IMG/VR virus record: IMGVR_UViG_3300037485_001293 | Location: 1-35,791 of that record | DNA length: 35,791 nt | From: a virus | Strand: one strand, 5' to 3' | Shown here: piece after piece, positions 4,558 through 27,171 of the stretch | How the letters are laid out: each line of letters begins with the position of its first letter | How positions within the stretch are numbered: the stretch's first letter is position 1 | The notes under the pieces: generated by a model | What the model saw: only the letters and a program-made list of their open reading frames with translations | Told to the model about the DNA's origin: nothing | Databases searched by the model: none | Translations under genes and position numbers: made by a program

Positions 4558-6371
4558 TGGATGAACCCCCCGCCGTCGCTTGCATTGTCAACCGTGCTGG
4601 CCTGAGCCTTGCCTCCGTACTTCTGTCCGACCCTAGACATGTCGTTGAGGCTTTTTGCATACTGCTTGTTCGTTTCAATCCACGGCGCAACGGTAGCTTC
4701 CATCACGCGCGCAACATCTGGGTTGAACTTACCAACCGCAAGGCCGCTGTTGATGCCAGCCATGGCATTAGCTTCGCTGTGGTCAATCCACGAGTTGAAC
4801 CCTTCAAACGTGTCGAGGTTGCGGCTCATCAAGTCGCGGACCTGCTCGCCAGTCGTAACAGACCCGCCAGAAATATCCTTGAGCCTATTGTTGATCATCT
4901 CTTGAGCGAACGAAAGCATCTTGCGCTCATCGTTAGTCATGTTCGACTTGAACTGTGCCCCGATGTATCTGGCAGCCGCAGCGATTGCTGCGCCCGAATC
5001 TGGCGAAGCTGCGGCTTTGTCCGCTGCTTCTCTAAGAATCTTCGAGACGCCGGTATTCCATAGCTCAGCCTGCTTCTCCAAGGGAATTTCCGCCTGAAGT
5101 TTTCGCATCTCAGCAATTGATTGCAGCGACTTCGACGAGGACTGCCACCGCTCGTCTTTGGTTGCCGCGTTGTATGCGTTGCCTTGCTTAATCTGGTCGT
5201 CGAGAGACATACCAGCATTGCCAGCCTTGAGAAGCATCAACGCTTGCATCTTGGCGGCGTTCACCGAGCCTTGAGCCGCAGCATTCTTCAGGTCCAAGTC
5301 CATCTGGAGCTTGCCACGCTGCCCATCAAGAGCGTAAATGGCCCCCTTCAACGAAGCCTTTTCCCTTGCTCCGCTTACTCGCTGTTCAGCGAATTGAAGA
5401 GCGCGCTTGTGCTGGTCCATCGACGCCATCGTAGATGCAGCAAGAGCTTCGTTGTCGTCTGCACCCATCTGGCGCGCATCGTGGAAGTTTGAGCGTGCCG
5501 TCGTTTGTCCTTGGAGCATCCGGCTGTACTGCTCTTTCTGATTCATCACGTCGCGCTCGACGGCCTTATCAACCTCGGCGAGAACCTGATTCGCCGACAT
5601 ATCGCCAGCCGCACCCTTGAGCGCGCCGACAAGACCAGCCGCAAAGCTCATGGCTCCCGTGCTGACAAGGCTGTCGCCCATGCCGCGAAGTGCGCGAGAC
5701 GCGTCAAACGTCTTTTCTGCTGCCGCAAGCTTGCGCTCGTCTTCAGCCATTACTGCGCGTCGAGCGTCATTGACGCCTTGTCGTTGCGCGTTGAGCTTCT
5801 CAAGCCCGCCGATGTACTGTTGCCCGACTTGCTGCATACCGGCGCGGGCAGCGTCGATCTCTGGCTGTGCCGCGTTCATGGCGGAAATCTGCTCGCCAAG
5901 AGCGCCCTGCTGCCCCTCGAACCCGCGTATTTGATACTTGTTCATACCAACAGATGGGGCGTGCATCCCCATAATCTGAGCGCGCAACGCCTCTAGTTGA
6001 GCTTGCTGCTTTTGCTCTGGTGTCAACTCAGTAGGCGGGGGCGCGGGCGGAAGATCCGCTCCGACGTTCCCGGTGGGTTGCTCCGCCCAGTTTGTGGTCA
6101 TGCCGCTTGCAAGGTCTTCTTCTGGAGACCCAGTCGGCCTAAAAACAGTTGGCGCGCGAGGCCGTCCCAGCAGGCCATTTGCCCCATATGCATTATTTTG
6201 TCTGGCGGCACGCAGCCCCGCTGCAGTGTCGCTGCCGGATTCCCGTGCGACGCGAGCCATCGCGGCCAATACATCTGGAGGTAGTGTAGACGCTTTGAGT
6301 TCGGCTGCTTTCGCTGCGTCCGCTGCTTCGTCTGCTTCGCGTTGCTCTTTCTGCTCTGGAGTCTCATCCAT
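4554..6371 (-). CDS. internal virion protein (second of three)
   Basis: About 605 aa. Two in-frame ATGs exist, at 6377 and 6371. AAAGGA sits only 2 nt from the first but 8 nt from the second, so 6371 is preferred. The N-terminus is acidic and Ala/Glu-rich, residues of about 115-190 are Gln-rich helix, and most of the rest is predicted helix/coiled coil with a short hydrophobic Gly/Ala patch near 235-250 (TGAMSFAAGLVGALKGAAGD). There is no enzyme motif. The gene lies between two other Ala/Gly-rich virion genes, matching the three-gene ejection-protein block of short-tailed phages. Role inferred from context. Confidence 0.65.
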   Translation of the reverse strand: MDETPEQKEQREADEAADAAKAAELKASTLPPDVLAAMARVARESGSDTAAGLRAARQNNAYGANGLLGRPRAPTVFRPTGSPEEDLASGMTTNWAEQPTGNVGADLPPAPPPTELTPEQKQQAQLEALRAQIMGMHAPSVGMNKYQIRGFEGQQGALGEQISAMNAAQPEIDAARAGMQQVGQQYIGGLEKLNAQRQGVNDARRAVMAEDERKLAAAEKTFDASRALRGMGDSLVSTGAMSFAAGLVGALKGAAGDMSANQVLAEVDKAVERDVMNQKEQYSRMLQGQTTARSNFHDARQMGADDNEALAASTMASMDQHKRALQFAEQRVSGAREKASLKGAIYALDGQRGKLQMDLDLKNAAAQGSVNAAKMQALMLLKAGNAGMSLDDQIKQGNAYNAATKDERWQSSSKSLQSIAEMRKLQAEIPLEKQAELWNTGVSKILREAADKAAASPDSGAAIAAAARYIGAQFKSNMTNDERKMLSFAQEMINNRLKDISGGSVTTGEQVRDLMSRNLDTFEGFNSWIDHSEANAMAGINSGLAVGKFNPDVARVMEATVAPWIETNKQYAKSLNDMSRVGQKYGGKAQASTVDNASDGGGFIQ

Positions 6372-21979: not shown

Positions 21980-22374
21980 GGCGCGGCCTCCAGTGCGGCG
22001 ACGAGTGCTTCGGCCTGTGTCGACCCATAGAACGAGGGAACGTGCACGAGATCGCGCTGTTCTTTGAAGAATGAGATCGGGACGGACCACCTCTTCGTCT
22101 CGTCCGGCGCGTAGGCGCTGAAGCAGACGGAGATCCGGCACGCGTTCCACGCTTCCCCCACCAACGCGAGCAGGCAGCCAAGCGTGGCGGGGTCGGAAAG
22201 GTCGGGAACGCAGTCCCTCAAGCTATCCGAGTCATACCCATCGGTCCGGTATGTATGACCGTCACAGTTGTTTGATACAACGCGGTAGGTCGGAAGTCCG
22301 TGTACCGTCATCCCATCCATCCAGCGCCAGTGCTTGCACGCTGTGGCGCGACGCCCAAGGTCTTCGATGCTCAT
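21976..22374 (-). CDS. paralogue B of the ACKHW-type small protein
   Basis: 132 aa from ATG 22374. It shares with the next gene upstream the N-terminal pattern LGRRA.ACKH..W..GM, the centre DL.DPAT.GCLL.LV.EAW and the C-terminus EALVAALEAAP, including the same GGAGGCCGCGCC ribosome-site sequence overlapping its end. Proteins of this ACKHWRWM / DPATLGCLL style are familiar as hypothetical proteins in phage genomes, but I know no assigned function. The two copies are the same length and adjacent, so tandem duplication is likely. Confidence 0.65.
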   Translation of the reverse strand: MSIEDLGRRATACKHWRWMDGMTVHGLPTYRVVSNNCDGHTYRTDGYDSDSLRDCVPDLSDPATLGCLLALVGEAWNACRISVCFSAYAPDETKRWSVPISFFKEQRDLVHVPSFYGSTQAEALVAALEAAP

Positions 22375-22769
22375 GGCGCGGCCTCCAGTGCGGCCACGAG
22401 GGCCTCGGCTTCGGACGGGTGCCACGGGAACGTTGAGGACGCAAACACGGTAGTCACATTGACCTGCCCTGGTCCCGCGTTGCGAGTGATTACGCCGAAC
22501 GTCCAGCCGCCGAACCCGTCGTGAACCGGAACCGCGTAGTCGGTCCACTCGTCAGGCCACGCTTCGCGCACCAGATACAGCAGGCACCCCATCGTAGCGG
22601 GGTCGTCGAGGTCGGGCCACACAGGCTCTGGCTCTGAGCTGCCGCAGACGGTTCCTGGAATCCAGACGCCAACGCGACGGCCACTGCTTGAGAGCATCCC
22701 CTGCACCCAGTAGAAGTGCTTGCACGCCAGGGCGCGCCGACCCAACTCATCAGCATCTTGCTTGGTCAT
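22371..22769 (-). CDS. paralogue A of the ACKHW-type small protein, first gene of the leftward unit
   Basis: 132 aa from ATG 22769 behind TTGGAGGAAACC. N-terminal LGRRALACKHFYWVQGM, central DLDDPATMGCLLYLVREAW and C-terminal SEAEALVAALEAAP match the next gene closely at the ends; the middle has diverged. It is the first credible gene reading leftward from the divergent intergenic region, so its promoter should lie between 22770 and about 23200. Function unknown; a role in early-late switching or in host takeover is possible but unsupported. Confidence 0.65.
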   Translation of the reverse strand: MTKQDADELGRRALACKHFYWVQGMLSSSGRRVGVWIPGTVCGSSEPEPVWPDLDDPATMGCLLYLVREAWPDEWTDYAVPVHDGFGGWTFGVITRNAGPGQVNVTTVFASSTFPWHPSEAEALVAALEAAP

Positions 22770-23290
22770 GGTTTCCTCCAAGAAGCATCCGAGCATGTGG
22801 AGAAGAAGCCATCAAGGGAAAAGATACCGACAGTCAACGAATCAGAGAGAGGTCGTAGTGAAGCGTGCAGAGTGCAGATAGGTACCGCAAGTCTACAGGG
22901 AATGTAGAGGCGAGTTGCAGAGTACAAGGAAAGCAAGCAGTGACGAGCCAGTAAGTGTAGGCCGTAGAAGTATCTTTGAAGGGGATGTCGAATCTGACTT
23001 GTATAACACCGTCATCTGTGAGCCTCTGGAACCGCAGGGGAGGTCTGATTCTCTCTCTCATGTCTGCGTTCTGCTACTGGCAAGTACAGAACCAGACGTC
23101 CACGTGCCCCCGGCACTCTAATCGAGAGCCTAGAAGGTACGCGTATTGTTCACGTAACACGGGAACACTGGACGATGGAAAATTTTAGCGGGTTGTCCCC
23201 CCTAGGTCCCCCCACCAAAGAAGTGCATACCGGGGTAAGCTCAACGAATTCGCACACTTAGCGCGTAGGGGCCTTGCGATAACGCTTCCC

Positions 23291-23373
23291 GCGCGTGAGC
23301 GAGTGAGCGCGTGAGGCTCTGAGAGGCACGCGCGTGAGGGAGGCTCTGAGAGGCTCTGAGAGGCTCTGAGAGC
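23291..23373. repeat. tandem 10-bp AGGCTCTGAG repeats
   Basis: Four copies of AGGCTCTGAG occur at 23314-23323, 23341-23350, 23351-23360 and 23361-23370, the last three in perfect tandem. They are flanked by three related GCGCGTGAG / GAGTGAGCGCG words. No gene spans them convincingly. Exact 10-bp spacing puts each unit on the same face of the helix, as in protein-binding iterons. They lie in the divergent control region, so an operator array or secondary origin element is possible. Confidence 0.6.
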
Positions 23374-23482
23374 CATCCGATACACCGCCCCCAATCCAAT
23401 CGCTCACAACACCAACGCACGCGATTGAATCGTGCACAACCTTTCAGGCTCTCTCGTCTCTCATCGGCTTGTCAAGCGTCAC

Positions 23483-23496
23483 TCACTCATGAGTGA
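23483..23496. promoter_or_regulatory. perfect 14-bp palindrome, operator-like
   Basis: TCACTCATGAGTGA is a perfect dyad in the divergent control region about 270 bp before the first rightward gene. Its size and position fit a dimeric regulator site. The cognate protein is unknown; the winged-helix-like and RHH-type proteins of the early unit are candidates. TCAC/GTGA half-sites also occur in the iterons of the replication gene. Confidence 0.4.
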
Positions 23497-23501
23497 CTTC
23501 G

Positions 23502-23544
23502 CCCTATGACTTTTCTGCATAGCACTGACACGATTGTCATAGGG
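23502..23544. promoter_or_regulatory. spaced inverted repeat CCCTATGAC / GTCATAGGG
   Basis: Two exact 9-bp arms at 23502-23510 and 23536-23544 are separated by 25 bp. They follow the 14-bp palindrome directly, so this stretch looks like a control site, either an operator pair or a long hairpin in a transcript. No T-run follows on either strand, so it is not a standard terminator. Confidence 0.4.
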
Positions 23545-23743
23545 ACTATGTGCAATGCTTCCGCTCTCTTAGTCGCTTTCTCGCATTTGACCATGACACG
23601 CGTGCCTTGGTTGCCCTAATTTGGCCCCGCTGCCTTGCATCGTGCCTTGCGAGCGTTTCCCCTGCATATATCCACGGAAAGCAAGTTGGCACGGTCCGTG
23701 CTCAGTATGTTCCGTCCAAGGCGAGCAAGCCTAGGACGAAACC

Positions 23744-23757
23744 GCGCCGGTAGGCGC
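23744..23757 (+). promoter_or_regulatory. GCGCC-loop-GGCGC hairpin before ribosome site (copy 1, loop GGTA)
   Basis: GCGCC (23744-23748), loop GGTA, GGCGC (23753-23757), then TCAGGATATACG and ATG at 23770. The five-base stem is identical in seven early-gene leaders while the loop differs each time, and the stem end is always 12-14 nt from the start codon. This is the most upstream member. Confidence 0.65.
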
Positions 23758-23769
23758 TCAGGATATACG

Positions 23770-24021
23770 ATGGAACGCGATACCCTCTCTGAATGCCTCA
23801 CGTGGGCTGAGTTCCCGGCTTCTGCTGTTTCTCTTTCGGTGACCGACGACGTGTGCGAAGTCCGCGTCGAAACGCTAATCGGATGCACCGTCACATCATC
23901 GGCTGTCGTAGCGTCATTCGCGTCAGAGCGCGCAGCTGTGGCGTATATTTCTTCCGAATTCGGACTGTCGCGGCAATGCCGCGATGGTGACGACGCCCAC
24001 GAAGGATATTGGCTTGCGTGA
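23770..24021 (+). CDS. early small protein 1 (hypothetical)
   Basis: 83 aa from ATG 23770, with AGGA 7 nt upstream and the conserved hairpin before it; longer upstream sequence in frame is basic and unlikely to be translated. The protein has a beta-rich middle (VSLSVTDDVCEVRVETLIG, TVTSSAVVASFAS) and ends with GDDAHEGYWLA. It is the first gene of the rightward unit, so it should be among the earliest expressed. No family recognised; small unrecognised first-early proteins of phages often act on host defence or host takeover, but nothing in the sequence shows this here. Confidence 0.6.
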   Translation: MERDTLSECLTWAEFPASAVSLSVTDDVCEVRVETLIGCTVTSSAVVASFASERAAVAYISSEFGLSRQCRDGDDAHEGYWLA

Positions 24022-24124
24022 CTTCCACCCCCTCATCGCCTATAGGGCGCGCCGATTCATGGTCGGATGAGTGGACCGCTGCATCACGCAGCATTAACGC
24101 GCCTTCGGCGCTAAGGATAAGACC
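24018..24124 (+). promoter_or_regulatory. structured leader copy A (three-way junction plus two hairpins)
   Basis: Begins TGAC (which supplies the stop of the previous gene) and a C-rich tract. Then outer stem CTCAT (24032-24036) / ATGAG (24067-24071) encloses hairpin CGCC-TATAG-GGCG (24037-24049) and hairpin CCGA-7 nt-TCGG (24052-24066). Next comes hairpin GCTGC-ATCAC-GCAGC (24078-24092), then GCGCC-TTC-GGCGC (24099-24111), AAGGA and ATG at 24125. GTGACT and TATAGG are 17 bp apart, so the 5' part could also be a promoter. Two further copies follow downstream. Confidence 0.75.
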
Positions 24125-24361
24125 ATGTCAATCGTATACCGCGTACGGGCCTCTAAGCATCTCTCAAACGGACGCGTCGACACACTTGGAACACTCTATG
24201 AGGGACCATCGCTTCCCGAAGCCACGGACGCCTATGCAGCGTATGAGAAGCCCCGCAATGTAAGGGCGCGCGTCATGGTTGGCCTAACGGAATGGGAGAA
24301 CGAGGGCGGGCTTCTCAAGCATAAGCTTTACGCTTCGTTGTCCGTTCGCCGTGAAGCCTAG
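24125..24361 (+). CDS. early small protein 2 (hypothetical)
   Basis: 78 aa from ATG 24125, ribosome site AAGGA 7 nt upstream inside the repeated leader. Sequence includes ASKHLSNGRVDTLGTLYEGP and a probable beta strand RARVMVGLTEW. The first four codons (MSIV) are identical at DNA level to those of early protein 3, although the rest differs, so the homologous segment shared with that gene ends just inside the coding sequence. No motif, signal or membrane segment. Function unknown. Confidence 0.6.
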   Translation: MSIVYRVRASKHLSNGRVDTLGTLYEGPSLPEATDAYAAYEKPRNVRARVMVGLTEWENEGGLLKHKLYASLSVRREA

Positions 24362-24475
24362 TTGACTCCCCCCCCCCCCCTTCATCGCCTATAGGGCGCG
24401 CCGACTCGCGATCGGATGAGGGGACCGCTGCATCATGCAGCATTAACGCGCCGTGTGGCGCTAAGGGATAAGATC
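24362..24475 (+). promoter_or_regulatory. structured leader copy B, with a 13-C tract
   Basis: TTGACT (24362-24367) is followed by 13 C residues (24368-24380). Outer stem TTCAT (24381-24385) / ATGAG (24416-24420) keeps pairing through a T.G wobble. Inside are CGCC-TATAG-GGCG (24386-24398) and CCGA-CTCGCGA-TCGG (24401-24415), whose loop differs completely from copies A and C while the stem is unchanged. Then GCTGC-ATCAT-GCAGC (24427-24441), GCGCC-GTGT-GGCGC (24448-24461), AAGGGA and ATG at 24476. Changes fall in loops, which supports a conserved fold. Confidence 0.75.
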
Positions 24476-24697
24476 ATGTCAATCGTAGGTAGAATCAACA
24501 TCAACGATGTACCATCACGCGTCACCTCAAGTCCACAAGTGCGGACCCGTACGGGTTACGGTAGCCGACTGCCCACGTGTCAAATGGTCCGCGTCAACCA
24601 ACGCTGGCGCAGAGTGTACGTGTGCATATTCGGCAACGCTGGCACATGCTACATTGACGGTCCGTGCAAGGGCGAATGGATCGTCGTCGAAGGCTGA
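24476..24697 (+). CDS. early small protein 3 (hypothetical)
   Basis: 73 aa from ATG 24476 with AAGGGA upstream in leader copy B; the open frame reaches back to 24416 but that part is leader RNA. The protein is basic and beta-rich: TGYGSRLPTCQMVRVNQRW, RRVYVCIFGNAGTCYIDG, then GEWIVVEG. Three Cys residues are present but without a clear metal motif. It shares only its first four residues with early protein 2. The fold is possibly a small barrel; function unknown. Confidence 0.6.
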   Translation: MSIVGRININDVPSRVTSSPQVRTRTGYGSRLPTCQMVRVNQRWRRVYVCIFGNAGTCYIDGPCKGEWIVVEG

Positions 24698-24802
24698 CCC
24701 CCTCCCCCCTCATCGCCTATAGGGCGCGCCGATTCATGGTCGGATGAGTGGACCGCTGCATCATGCAGCTACACACGCGCCTTCGGCGCTAAGGGTAAGA
24801 CC
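24694..24802 (+). promoter_or_regulatory. structured leader copy C
   Basis: Begins with the TGAC stop of the previous gene and a C-rich tract. Outer stem CTCAT (24709-24713) / ATGAG (24744-24748) encloses CGCC-TATAG-GGCG (24714-24726) and CCGA-TTCATGG-TCGG (24729-24743), identical to copy A. Then GCTGC-ATCAT-GCAGC (24755-24769), a diverged linker, GCGCC-TTC-GGCGC (24777-24789), AAGGG and ATG at 24803. CTGACC to TATAGG spacing is 18 bp. Confidence 0.75.
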
Positions 24803-25057
24803 ATGCGATACACGTCAAAGGCGATCCACGCGCTATGCCGCGCACTGAACGCAGAACATGGAATCCTGGCCACAAGCGAGGAAGGTATCATGTTGGCGCA
24901 AGGGTTCACGGTCGAACGCGATTCGACCGGCTGGCGCGTGTGCCGATACACGGGAAGCCGCTATGGCGTGCGCGATATGCACCCGATACGGCTGACAGCT
25001 GCAGCTTGCGCACAAGTCCTGATCGCGCTTTCGAATTCATCGCGCGAGTCCCGATAA
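24803..25057 (+). CDS. early small protein 4 (hypothetical)
   Basis: 84 aa from ATG 24803, ribosome site AAGGG in leader copy C. Starts with a helical RYTSKAIHALCRALNAEHG, followed by a beta-type FTVERDSTGWRVCRYTGSR and a C-terminal helix LTAAACAQVLIALSNSS. This helix-strand-helix plan looks like a genuine small domain, but I recognise no family. Its 3' end lies 13 nt before the next start. Function unknown. Confidence 0.6.
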   Translation: MRYTSKAIHALCRALNAEHGILATSEEGIMLAQGFTVERDSTGWRVCRYTGSRYGVRDMHPIRLTAAACAQVLIALSNSSRESR

Positions 25058-25070
25058 CCTAGGTCCTACC

Positions 25071-25304
25071 ATGTCCAAGCCAATACCTTGCCTCGGTTCG
25101 CGTTCGTGGAATGCCTGCCAAGTGTCTCTCATAATCGCCAATACCGAAAGCTTGTACATTCTCGCGCAAGAATGCCTAGCGCGCACCCAGGGGGACGCGA
25201 AAAAGGCTTCCCGTCTTATGCTCCGAAGAATCCCAGCGCGTGCACACGGCTGCAACTTTAACCCGTTGTGCGTCCGGGAGGCGCTAGAGGACTTGAAAGC
25301 CTAA
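25071..25304 (+). CDS. early small protein 5 (hypothetical)
   Basis: 77 aa from ATG 25071 with a weak AGG ribosome site and no leader hairpin, so it is probably coupled to the gene before it. Helical NTESLYILAQECLARTQGD and KKASRLMLRRIPARAHGCN are followed by NFNPLCVREALEDLKA. It may be a small helical protein, possibly nucleic-acid binding given its Arg/Lys content. Four Cys residues do not form a clear zinc motif. Function unknown. Confidence 0.55.
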   Translation: MSKPIPCLGSRSWNACQVSLIIANTESLYILAQECLARTQGDAKKASRLMLRRIPARAHGCNFNPLCVREALEDLKA

Positions 25305-25312
25305 CCGCTCCT

Positions 25313-25383
25313 TTGCTTGCCAGCCTTTTCGCTGGCTTGCAACGATAGCGGCTGAGCCGTGAACCTTCCCAAATACCTGGGGA
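25313..25383 (+). promoter_or_regulatory. hairpin cluster in leader of early gene 6
   Basis: Three stems precede the GCGCC hairpin here instead of the three-way junction: TTGC-TT-GCCAGC / GCTGGC-TT-GCAA around a CTTTTC loop (25313-25342), CGGC-TGA-GCCG (25349-25359) and CCTTCCC / GGGGAGG with one G.T pair (about 25363-25384). No T-run follows, so ordinary termination is not obvious. This may be a diverged replacement of the leader element. Confidence 0.5.
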
Positions 25384-25391
25384 GGAAAAAC

Positions 25392-25406
25392 GCGCCCATG
25401 TGGCGC
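25392..25406 (+). promoter_or_regulatory. GCGCC-loop-GGCGC hairpin (loop CATGT)
   Basis: GCGCC 25392-25396 and GGCGC 25402-25406, followed by TAAGGGTAGACA and ATG at 25419. Same stem and same distance to the start codon as in the structured leaders. Confidence 0.65.
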
Positions 25407-25418
25407 TAAGGGTAGACA

Positions 25419-25658
25419 ATGAATGTGAGCACGCCTATCGGAGCGGTCCGAATCGTGAGGGAGTTTCTTGATGCTCAAGGATATACTCGTCATGGCCAGT
25501 ATTTCGGACTAGGTCCGAAGTTGTACCTCATTGTGACCGACGAAAGCCAAATCCACGTCCGCGCACCCGGTGCGTACGCGCTAGCGCGTTGGTGCCGTGC
25601 TCTCACAAGCGCGGAACAATTGCATGCCGCGAAGTATCGCGGGATTGACTTCACCTGA
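25419..25658 (+). CDS. early small protein 6 (hypothetical)
   Basis: 79 aa from ATG 25419 with AAGGG upstream after the conserved hairpin. N-terminal GAVRIVREFLDAQGYTRHG is followed by beta-type FGLGPKLYLIVTDESQIHV and a helical end RWCRALTSAEQLHAAKYRG. Helix-strand-helix order resembles early protein 4 in plan, although no residue identity is evident. Function unknown; the good ribosome site and separate leader indicate a real, independently expressed gene. Confidence 0.6.
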   Translation: MNVSTPIGAVRIVREFLDAQGYTRHGQYFGLGPKLYLIVTDESQIHVRAPGAYALARWCRALTSAEQLHAAKYRGIDFT

Positions 25659-25678
25659 AAAACCTGGGCACGAAAACT

Positions 25679-25692
25679 GCGCCGCGTGGCGC
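25679..25692 (+). promoter_or_regulatory. GCGCC-loop-GGCGC hairpin (loop GCGT)
   Basis: GCGCC 25679-25683, loop GCGT, GGCGC 25688-25692, then TAGGGGTAGAGC and ATG at 25705. Fourth different loop with the same stem. Confidence 0.65.
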
Positions 25693-25704
25693 TAGGGGTA
25701 GAGC

Positions 25705-25905
25705 ATGAACAGTCTGAAGTCAGTGTGTCACCGTGACGGTACCGTCACGTATTGGAGTGTTTACCAGCAGTCCTGGGAGCGGCGCGCTGCGAGCGTGCCA
25801 GACCGTGAGCTTGCCGCGATGTCTGAGCATGAGCGGCACCTAGTTCAGCGGCACCTTGCGCGGCATGGATACGATGAAACCTCACACTATCGGTGCGAGT
25901 CGTGA
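25705..25905 (+). CDS. early small protein 7 (hypothetical)
   Basis: 66 aa from ATG 25705, AGGGG upstream after the conserved hairpin. Sequence starts NSLKSVCHRDGTVTYWSVYQ, then a basic, His-rich helix SEHERHLVQRHLARHGYDE. A GTGA overlap couples it to the next gene. The protein is small and basic; nucleic-acid or protein binding is possible, but nothing specific is shown. Confidence 0.6.
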   Translation: MNSLKSVCHRDGTVTYWSVYQQSWERRAASVPDRELAAMSEHERHLVQRHLARHGYDETSHYRCES

Positions 25906-26300
25906 ACTATCACGACTTCCCCGAGCCTCCCTTGGACCCTCCGGAATACTGGGGGCCATCGGATGAGCTTCACCCTACCTTGGAAGAGGTAGAAGACGCG
26001 CTTTCAAGCGCGGAGCGGGAAACCATGGCCGTCCTCTTTTCCCTGTCGGGGAACGTGGACAGCATCTCGCATTATGAGCTGACGCCTATGCTCACGTTCG
26101 AAGACTGGTGCGAGGAATGGCCGGACTGGTTTCCGGGCGTTGCGACGCCGACGCGTGAGGCGTTCGCTCCTCTGATCGCATCGATTGCGGTACTGGTGGA
26201 CGCGGCGAATGCCGTGGAAACCTGGGAAGAGCCTGCGCGGCAGGATGAATGCCAGTGCCGCAAGCGCAAGTGTGCCTACTGCGGCGACTCAGATTATTAA
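25902..26300 (+). CDS. acidic early protein with C-terminal Cys cluster (hypothetical)
   Basis: 132 aa from GTG 25902, chosen because GTGA overlaps the stop of the previous gene; GTG 25893 is an alternative. The protein is strongly acidic (DFPEPPLDPPEYWGPSDE, EEVEDALSSAERE, FEDWCEEWPDWFPG) and ends with a Cys-rich QCRKRKCAYCGDSDY. Very acidic small early proteins can mimic DNA and block DNA-binding host enzymes; that is a possibility only. The terminal cluster could bind zinc. No family recognised. Confidence 0.6.
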   Translation: MNYHDFPEPPLDPPEYWGPSDELHPTLEEVEDALSSAERETMAVLFSLSGNVDSISHYELTPMLTFEDWCEEWPDWFPGVATPTREAFAPLIASIAVLVDAANAVETWEEPARQDECQCRKRKCAYCGDSDY

Positions 26301-26301
26301 C

Positions 26302-26316
26302 GCGCCGCGTTGGCGC
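26302..26316 (+). promoter_or_regulatory. GCGCC-loop-GGCGC hairpin (loop GCGTT)
   Basis: GCGCC 26302-26306, loop GCGTT, GGCGC 26312-26316, then TAGGATAAATACC and ATG at 26330. It is preceded by ATTAAC, the same linker seen in leader copies A and B. Confidence 0.65.
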
Positions 26317-26329
26317 TAGGATAAATACC

Positions 26330-26566
26330 ATGTGGAACGATTATGCTTTCCGAGTCTTTGACAATTCCGGTGCGTGCCTTGGGCACGGAAACACGAAGCT
26401 TGCCGCGCTTCAATCGGCGCTCCGCGCCCATCCATGGATTTCGGCCATGACTTGGGACCAAGTGAGAATGGCTGGCATTCGCATCCGATTCGATTGCAGT
26501 CCTGAATTCCGGGCATGGCAGGGAAAGCAAGAGCCGGCGCAAATGTTCGCCCCATGCCGTTCCTGA
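26330..26566 (+). CDS. early small protein 9 (hypothetical)
   Basis: 78 aa from ATG 26330, AGGA upstream after the conserved hairpin. WNDYAFRVFDNSGACLGHG, helix KLAALQSALRAHPWISAM and strand AGIRIRFDCSPEF suggest a small alpha/beta domain. The 3' end overlaps the next small membrane-protein frame by 13 nt. Function unknown. Confidence 0.6.
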   Translation: MWNDYAFRVFDNSGACLGHGNTKLAALQSALRAHPWISAMTWDQVRMAGIRIRFDCSPEFRAWQGKQEPAQMFAPCRS

Positions 26567-26712
26567 TCCTGGCGGTGCTTTTCATGGCATGCACCGGGAA
26601 CTGCTCGGGCGCTGCGCATAGCGCGGGTGCCTTGGCGTTCCTCTCGCTCGCGACTCCGTTCCCCTGGCTCTTGCTGGGTGCGGTATGGGTCGTGGCGAAA
26701 AACCTGGACTGA
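26554..26712 (+). CDS. small two-helix membrane protein (hypothetical)
   Basis: 52 aa from ATG 26554; an upstream in-frame ATG at 26515 would add 13 residues inside the previous gene. Two hydrophobic stretches (PFLILAVLFMACTGNCSG and ALAFLSLATPFPWLLLGAVW) indicate two membrane helices. No good ribosome site is visible for either start, so expression may rely on coupling. It could affect the host envelope or exclude other phages, but no motif shows this. Confidence 0.45.
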   Translation: MPFLILAVLFMACTGNCSGAAHSAGALAFLSLATPFPWLLLGAVWVVAKNLD

Positions 26713-26778
26713 CGTTCGCCCCTTGCCTGCGATTCCTCGCGGGCAACGTGCGCACCTAAGCGCGAAGGACCGAAAAAC

Positions 26779-27171
26779 ATGGGCAATGTCAAAGCATCTA
26801 TCCGCGAAGAATATAACTCCGGCCCGGACTACCTCGACGCAGTCGCGACGGCGCTCGCCGACGCATACTTGAAGCTCATCAGCGTGAGCTTTAAGAACGG
26901 GCCGGACGAACACCGCGCGATAACGCGGGAGATTGGCGAGCTTGCGGCTCGCTACGAGCGAGCCAAGACCGTTCGATATATGGTTGCCGAAACTGGGGAG
27001 ACGCTTCAGGGCCTGCGGCGCACGCTTGCTGTCGCCGTAGCGGAAGCGGACCTGAAACTGCGGGACATCTCCAGCGTCGGCGAGGGATACGAAGACCAAA
27101 TCGACGAAGTCAATCGCTCGCGAGACCGCTATCAGACTGTCGTCAGCGCAATCGCCGATGGATACCGCTAG
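26779..27171 (+). CDS. helical early protein (hypothetical)
   Basis: 130 aa from ATG 26779 with AAGGA 8 nt upstream; a weaker GCGC-6 nt-GCGC stem (26750-26763) lies just before, a degenerate form of the conserved hairpin. Mostly charged helix: DAVATALADAYLKLISVSF, ELAARYERAKTVRYMVAE, LAVAVAEADLKLRDISSVG. It precedes the recombination genes and overlaps the next start by 14 nt. No catalytic motif. It may be an accessory or scaffold-like protein of the recombination unit. Confidence 0.6.
   Translation: MGNVKASIREEYNSGPDYLDAVATALADAYLKLISVSFKNGPDEHRAITREIGELAARYERAKTVRYMVAETGETLQGLRRTLAVAVAEADLKLRDISSVGEGYEDQIDEVNRSRDRYQTVVSAIADGYR

Follow-up and report, generated by a model that had tools for sequence, protein, structure and literature searches.

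The small early genes of the window, a linear IMG/VR virus contig of 35.8 kb, are separated by three copies (A, B and C) of a folded leader. Comparison with related contigs indicates that these leaders are one class of structured cis-acting RNA, in which shape is conserved across the phage lineage and sequence is free to vary. The existence of a structured leader RNA is near certain, and compensating mutations in relatives give strong support to its fold. The proposed role is that of a gene-boundary element in polycistronic early mRNA, under selection for its shape, a tentative reading given somewhat less than an even chance.

Genome Organization and Lineage

The late genes of the window lie on the minus strand and include a capsid gene with Pfam SU10_MCP and PHROG matches, a terminase gene and a head-tail gene. 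Early genes occupy the plus strand from ~23.7 kb, starting with small unknown ORFs that are followed by exonuclease, helicase-loader and RusA-like genes. Relatives were reached through the exonuclease and the terminase, and the lineage is known from metagenomes only. Against 50,697 phage records, no isolate match was obtained for the major capsid protein and a single one, at 25% identity, for the terminase. The terminase also matches at 86% in a single MAG contig assigned to an uncultured delta-proteobacterium; as this contig may be a phage placed in the wrong bin, it is weak evidence for the host.

Each leader fills the gap between two successive small ORFs, reaching from the upstream stop codon to the downstream ATG. 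The first of these ORFs (23770..24021, plus strand, as are all those below; 83 aa) has a homologue in the related contig L252. Copies A and C are followed by ORFs of 78 aa (24125..24361) and 84 aa (24803..25057) with no homologue among the relatives compared, and the 73 aa ORF behind copy B (24476..24697) has a homologue behind the L059 leader at 2464-2574. Since these two share 67% amino acid identity and differ at codon positions 19/14/38, the ORF behind copy B is taken to be a real gene. The first-pass annotation had called the ORFs behind the leaders unrelated beyond their first residues; in agreement, BLASTp finds no similarity of these ORFs to one another, and MSIV is all that those behind A and B share.

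Leader Architecture

A 79-nt repeat family (85-90% identical, with starts at 24025, 24374 and 24702) runs through the three leaders. Copy A (24018..24127, plus strand) consists of a C-rich tract, five stems (P1 to P5), the SD and the ATG at 24125. The outer stem P1 (24029-24036 with 24067-24074, about 8 pairs) is joined without a spare base to P2 (CGCC/GGCG; 24037-24040 with 24046-24049); two bases later, P3 (CCGA/TCGG; 24052-24055 with 24063-24066) encloses a 7-base loop and leads back to P1, again without a spare base. P1 to P3 form a three-way junction, two of whose three strands have no spare bases. The junction is followed by P4 (GCTGC/GCAGC; 24078-24082 with 24088-24092) and then P5 (GCGCC/GGCGC; 24099-24103 with 24107-24111), directly 3′ of which stands the SD (TAAGG), followed by the start codon. 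Copies B (24367..24478, ATG 24476) and C (24695..24805, ATG 24803), both on the plus strand, have the same parts. The upstream stop codon lies ~7-13 nt 5′ of P1 in all three, copy C overlapping the stop codon of the upstream ORF. Copy B has a T.G pair in P1, the P3 loop CTCGCGA and a 13-C tract before P1; homopolymers being difficult to assemble, the true length of this run (24368-24383) may be uncertain. All 7 close copies keep a tract rich in pyrimidines, and mostly in C, 5′ of P1.

All of the stems drawn in the first-pass annotation are present in A, B and C, copy B has the T.G pair that it placed in the outer stem there, and RNAalifold returns the drawn fold unaided from five copies. Single-sequence MFE prediction gives the drawn fold for the L059 copies and for copy G of L252; in A, C and F the preferred fold is one in which the arms of P2 pair with those of P5. 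A switch based on this arm exchange was considered and rejected, the exchange not being kept in L059, where P2 is CGCA/TGCG. MFE z-scores range from -1.9 to -2.5 for A to C and reach -4.9 in relatives; coding windows, as controls, average -0.2 and -0.4.

Rfam 15 gave no match at gathering for the whole window and none at E ≤ 5 for 23600-26800; a literature search likewise returned no description of this layout, consistent with the earlier statement that no described phage leader is known to have it. ARAGORN reports no tRNA or tmRNA in the window or in seven relative loci. No terminator-like site (hairpin plus T run) is present on the plus strand at the A to C leaders, and no sigma-70 promoter-like site in 22800-27000, where 2.0 are expected; by eye, A and C hold weak half-matches to sigma-70, 17 nt apart. 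A tRNA-like fold was also considered, P3 with its 7-base TTC loop beside P1 resembling a T-arm, and was discarded, as the T-loop A is missing and ARAGORN finds nothing. At L061:6690-6790, upstream of a P5 start hairpin, GGCCCTG...GCAGGTTCGATTCCTGC...CAGGGCC resembles a tRNA acceptor stem and T-arm without the rest, and ARAGORN reports no tRNA there.

Conservation of Base Pairing in Homologous Copies

Four further homologous copies are found in two related contigs, D and E in L059 and F and G in L252, in which P1 and P2 pairs are altered on both sides. Among the seven copies, three pairs have double compensatory changes, in P1 (T-A / T.G / C-G and C-G / T-A) and in P2 (C-G / A-T), one of them (P1.4) with a T.G intermediate. 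Standard pairs fill 191 of the 196 counted cells (179 Watson-Crick and 12 G.U), the rest being 3 A.C and 2 other; in the strand comparison, G.U outnumbers A.C by 12 to 3 and, once one constant wobble is left out, by 5 to 3, a slight lean towards RNA. Homologues whose changes break stems as often as loops, named in the first-pass annotation as evidence against the fold, were thus looked for and not found, and its claim of selection on RNA structure is supported by the double changes in P1 and P2 and by those in the ten-leader alignment described below. Its account of the P3 loop of copy B stands in part: the loop differs and the stem is intact, but the loop exists as two alleles and CTCGCGA is not private to B, recurring in copy F of L252, with TTCGCGA in L059. 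Scans for exact hairpin-fragment patterns gave mainly chance matches; they also picked up L252 and L250, the latter being the L059 contig itself.

RNA is favoured over cruciform DNA as the structured form, because the leaders are always in the sense orientation, ending at SD and ATG, and because cruciforms do not readily extrude from stems as short as 4-9 bp.

P5 and SD as a Lineage-Wide Start Element

The last hairpin with its SD, earlier described for A to C, is indeed present there and also stands at four other early starts, giving seven in the window. With the window included, the same pair occurs in 16 related contigs; its loops vary, and it lies mostly on the early strand. P5 adjoins the SD at a fixed distance and is nearly constant in sequence in most copies. 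In many genes it is preceded by a P4 hairpin whose stem differs in sequence and still pairs (CCTTCCC/GGGGAGG, CCACC/GGTGG, CCGGCCC/GGGCTGG, GCCCGG/CCGGGC). With P5 and SD so widespread and P4 often before them, A to C are therefore the most elaborate version of a start leader that is lineage-wide.

A related leader of different sequence (25302..25421, plus strand; R2, the covariance model described below, E 1e-6; MFE z -3.3) runs through hairpins, the P4 stem CCTTCCC/GGGGAGG, P5 and SD to the ATG of the ORF at 25419. The leader of the first early gene (23653..23772, plus strand; R2 E 8e-5; MFE z -3.2) has hairpins, P5 and SD before ATG 23770. The remaining two plus-strand sites consist of P5, SD and ATG: that at 25679..25707 (ATG 25705) has no clear upstream structure (z +0.8), and that at 26302..26332 (ATG 26330) coincides with an R2 match at 26245-26332.

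Several other sites were also observed. Another start leader, at 26725-26781 of the window, has a TTGCCTGCGA/TCGCGGGCAA hairpin followed by TGCGCACCTAAGCGCG and an SD; at the homologous site of L059 (4957), bases are changed and pairing is kept. At L356:7097 and L359:7099, from more distant phages with about 45% identity in the neighbouring gene, a GGTAACC hairpin is followed by TGCGCCATTGTGCGC, a purine-rich SD-like stretch and ATG; this may be the same start element. Upstream of the first early gene, at 23640-23740, the window shares TTGGCACGGTCCGTGCTCAGTATGTTCC (nearly) unchanged with L059 and L252; it is probably a regulatory region between diverging gene blocks.

Leaders of the Same Shape with Other Sequence

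Leaders of largely unrelated sequence and the same junction geometry precede early genes of L060, L061 and L063. Upstream of P5, stems of such sequence take up the junction layout at 6248-6364 and 6922-7034 of L063 and at 6322-6419 of L061. In a scripted junction finder, controlled with 100 shuffles of each leader, the L061 leader scores 37.2 against a shuffle maximum of 24.4 and the two L063 leaders score 34.3 against 26.8 and 32.5 against 29.3; for another leader of L063, at 5612, the result is borderline (p 0.02). The leaders of L319, L320, L328 and L310 have P5, mostly with other hairpins, and no clear three-way junction, so the junction is not essential everywhere.

In an alignment of ten leaders (A3) that includes the sequence-unrelated ones, 95.1% of cells pair and both sides are changed in 19 of 29 pairs, levels reached by none of 500 shuffles. 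The covariation score is 0.50, compared with 0.15 in shuffles and ≤0.11 with slid partners; because A3 was fitted to the structure, with three of its ten leaders picked by the structural model, these covariation counts lean towards that model. Support independent of the base pairs comes from where the leaders stand, in front of an SD and an early ORF.

The first-pass annotation had proposed a covariance-model search, and such a model (R2, built from A3) finds the L060 leader, on which it was not trained, at 58 bits and an E-value of about 1e-14. Across 125 loci of other, unrelated viral DNA, 1.3 Mb in total, R2 has no match below E 0.01 except L250, the best being at E 0.014. In the window it yields seven matches, all on the plus strand at 23.6-26.4 kb and each ending at a start codon, and none in the late genes. 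A match in L306/L346 (42 bits) was not counted as a three-way junction, its outer stem being unpaired, and one in L081 was not counted, having several broken pairs. A protein scan for further L063-type leaders returned only L063's own contig.

Leader Recombination and Gene Turnover

Copies within a genome are 88-95% alike for A to C and 90% for D and E, compared with 72-86% between genomes; the F-G pair, at 81%, is no closer than copies between genomes. Recombination has likely homogenised the leaders in the window and L059, to judge from these identities. The genes behind leaders turn over while the leader persists. The L060 leader (1868-1977) equals the 6248 leader of L063 up to CTGCCCAG and the 6922 leader of L063 thereafter, and the gene that lies between those two leaders in L063 is absent in L060; this mosaic is read as the product of recombination within the leader, with gain or loss of a gene. 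Both this recombination and P5 as a lineage-wide start element were missed in the first-pass annotation.

On the minus strand of the window, at 22147-22796, two diverged direct repeats of 60 nt and 57 nt lie about 400 nt apart, suggesting tandem duplication of a small gene, and LEDLGRRA proteins similar to those encoded there recur in relatives.

Proposed Role of the Leaders

The position and conservation of the leaders point to a putative cistron-boundary role, which is favoured over translational control. In the early mRNA the leader would lie between two small genes, after the stop codon of the first and before the SD of the second, and once folded it would act physically as a cistron boundary, blocking exonucleases or setting processing points; physical action is suggested because the shape is kept and not any loop sequence. 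Each small early gene would receive its own protected 5′ end directly before the start site, whatever gene is swapped in. Genes between leaders come and go as the leaders recombine. A point against the boundary role is the near-constant sequence of P5, which would suit a sequence-specific binder. The leaders might further be an exchangeable gene-boundary cassette, an RNA defined by shape and hardly by sequence, with genes travelling with or between copies and the fold alone guaranteeing mRNA ends and a start site for any incoming gene; this is possible, if doubtful.

Translational regulation, in which a phage or host factor binds the leader or the C-rich tract pairs with the SD until it is opened by a ribosome that has reached the upstream stop codon, is a less likely explanation with several features to its credit. 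P5 adjoins the SD at a fixed distance, the stop codon precedes P1 closely in A to C, and deleting ~25 nt after the stop raises predicted SD exposure in most copies (for example from 0.42 to 0.70 in B and from 0.23 to 0.63 in F). However, once flanks and shuffled controls are included, the average effect on the SD is that of chance, neither exposure nor sequestration by the leader standing out clearly from shuffles (mean predicted exposure 0.50 with the native leader and 0.44 with shuffled ones, from coarse energy models). Because SD exposure is not clearly better than with shuffled leaders, the simplest translational models, and the "start" part of the boundary role, are without computed support. 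The C-rich tract is moreover missing in the L060, L061 and L063 leaders, and the class has no common loop sequence for a binder. A DNA-level recombination cassette, the repeats being kept mainly as homology for gene shuffling, or else as a hairpin in DNA or a site for a protein, with the RNA fold secondary, would fit the closer likeness of copies within the window or within L059 (88-95%) than of most copies between genomes, the changing genes behind them and the mosaic in L060, but is improbable: homology needs no pairing kept while sequence is replaced, nor a strict sense orientation with SD and ATG. Also quite improbable is a transcription element acting on RNA polymerase, either an anti-termination or anti-pausing RNA like HK022 put or one hiding C-rich RNA from Rho. 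Structured nascent RNA in early genes, and put RNAs of about 70 nt in early transcripts (PMC9378689), speak for it; put, however, consists of two stem-loops, one element downstream of each early promoter, whereas up to three near-identical copies stand here between successive genes, tied to start codons. The notion that the leaders are T7-like phage RNA polymerase promoters (CCTATAGGG), the outer stem and first hairpin being DNA and only partly transcribed, draws on CTATAGGG, present in all three window copies. It is rejected, with hardly any probability left to it, because the homologous copies D, E and G lose the TATAGGG core and carry CACTAGGTGCG with pairing kept, and because an RNA polymerase gene is absent: Pfam RNA_pol has no match in the window or in six relatives, contigs that may be incomplete (positive control, T7 at 1e-109).

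The structured RNAs of phage genomes are poorly catalogued, and this leader, which matches none of 4227 Rfam families, offers a clean case of RNA shape kept and sequence replaced, with several copies in small genomes and structure-function rules testable by leader swaps. It suggests how a phage may gain or lose small early genes without building a new translation start each time, and the leaders could supply natural gene-boundary parts.

Comparison with Known Systems

Intercistronic stem-loops such as those of REP/BIME and the puf operon stabilise parts of polycistronic mRNA and are simple hairpins after stop codons. The leaders resemble them as folded elements between cistrons with shape prevailing over sequence, but reach the SD of the next gene and hold a three-way junction. 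RiboJ-type insulators, which are engineered, likewise place a hairpin immediately before the SD as part of a folded 5′ unit; they differ from the leaders, which contain no ribozyme (no Rfam match) and give no insulation in the SD-exposure computation.

The nearest described system is SAS/ESAS of the cluster K mycobacteriophages (PMC3203893), which is likewise conserved across a phage cluster, with many copies per genome immediately upstream of the start codons of unrelated genes and overlapping the SD region, some carrying an extra upstream inverted-repeat module. P5 with SD has this multi-copy placement at seven early starts. The SAS is a 13-bp sequence, GGGATAGGAGCCC, at the SD (PMC3203893); allowing ≤3 mismatches, the window has 6 matches against 8.2 expected, none at early starts. 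For ESAS, its authors found little support for RNA hairpins and preferred DNA-binding sites (PMC3203893), whereas pairing in the leaders is conserved with double changes, their sequence is not conserved and a three-way junction is present. The leaders are not SAS/ESAS members, as the SAS sequence is absent and pairing is supported here, unlike in the ESAS arms. HK022 put acts on RNA polymerase by binding the zinc domain of the beta-prime subunit (PMC9378689); the leaders share with it the character of a structured cis-acting RNA in phage early transcripts and differ in being multi-copy and intercistronic, built of a junction plus hairpins and ending at the SD.
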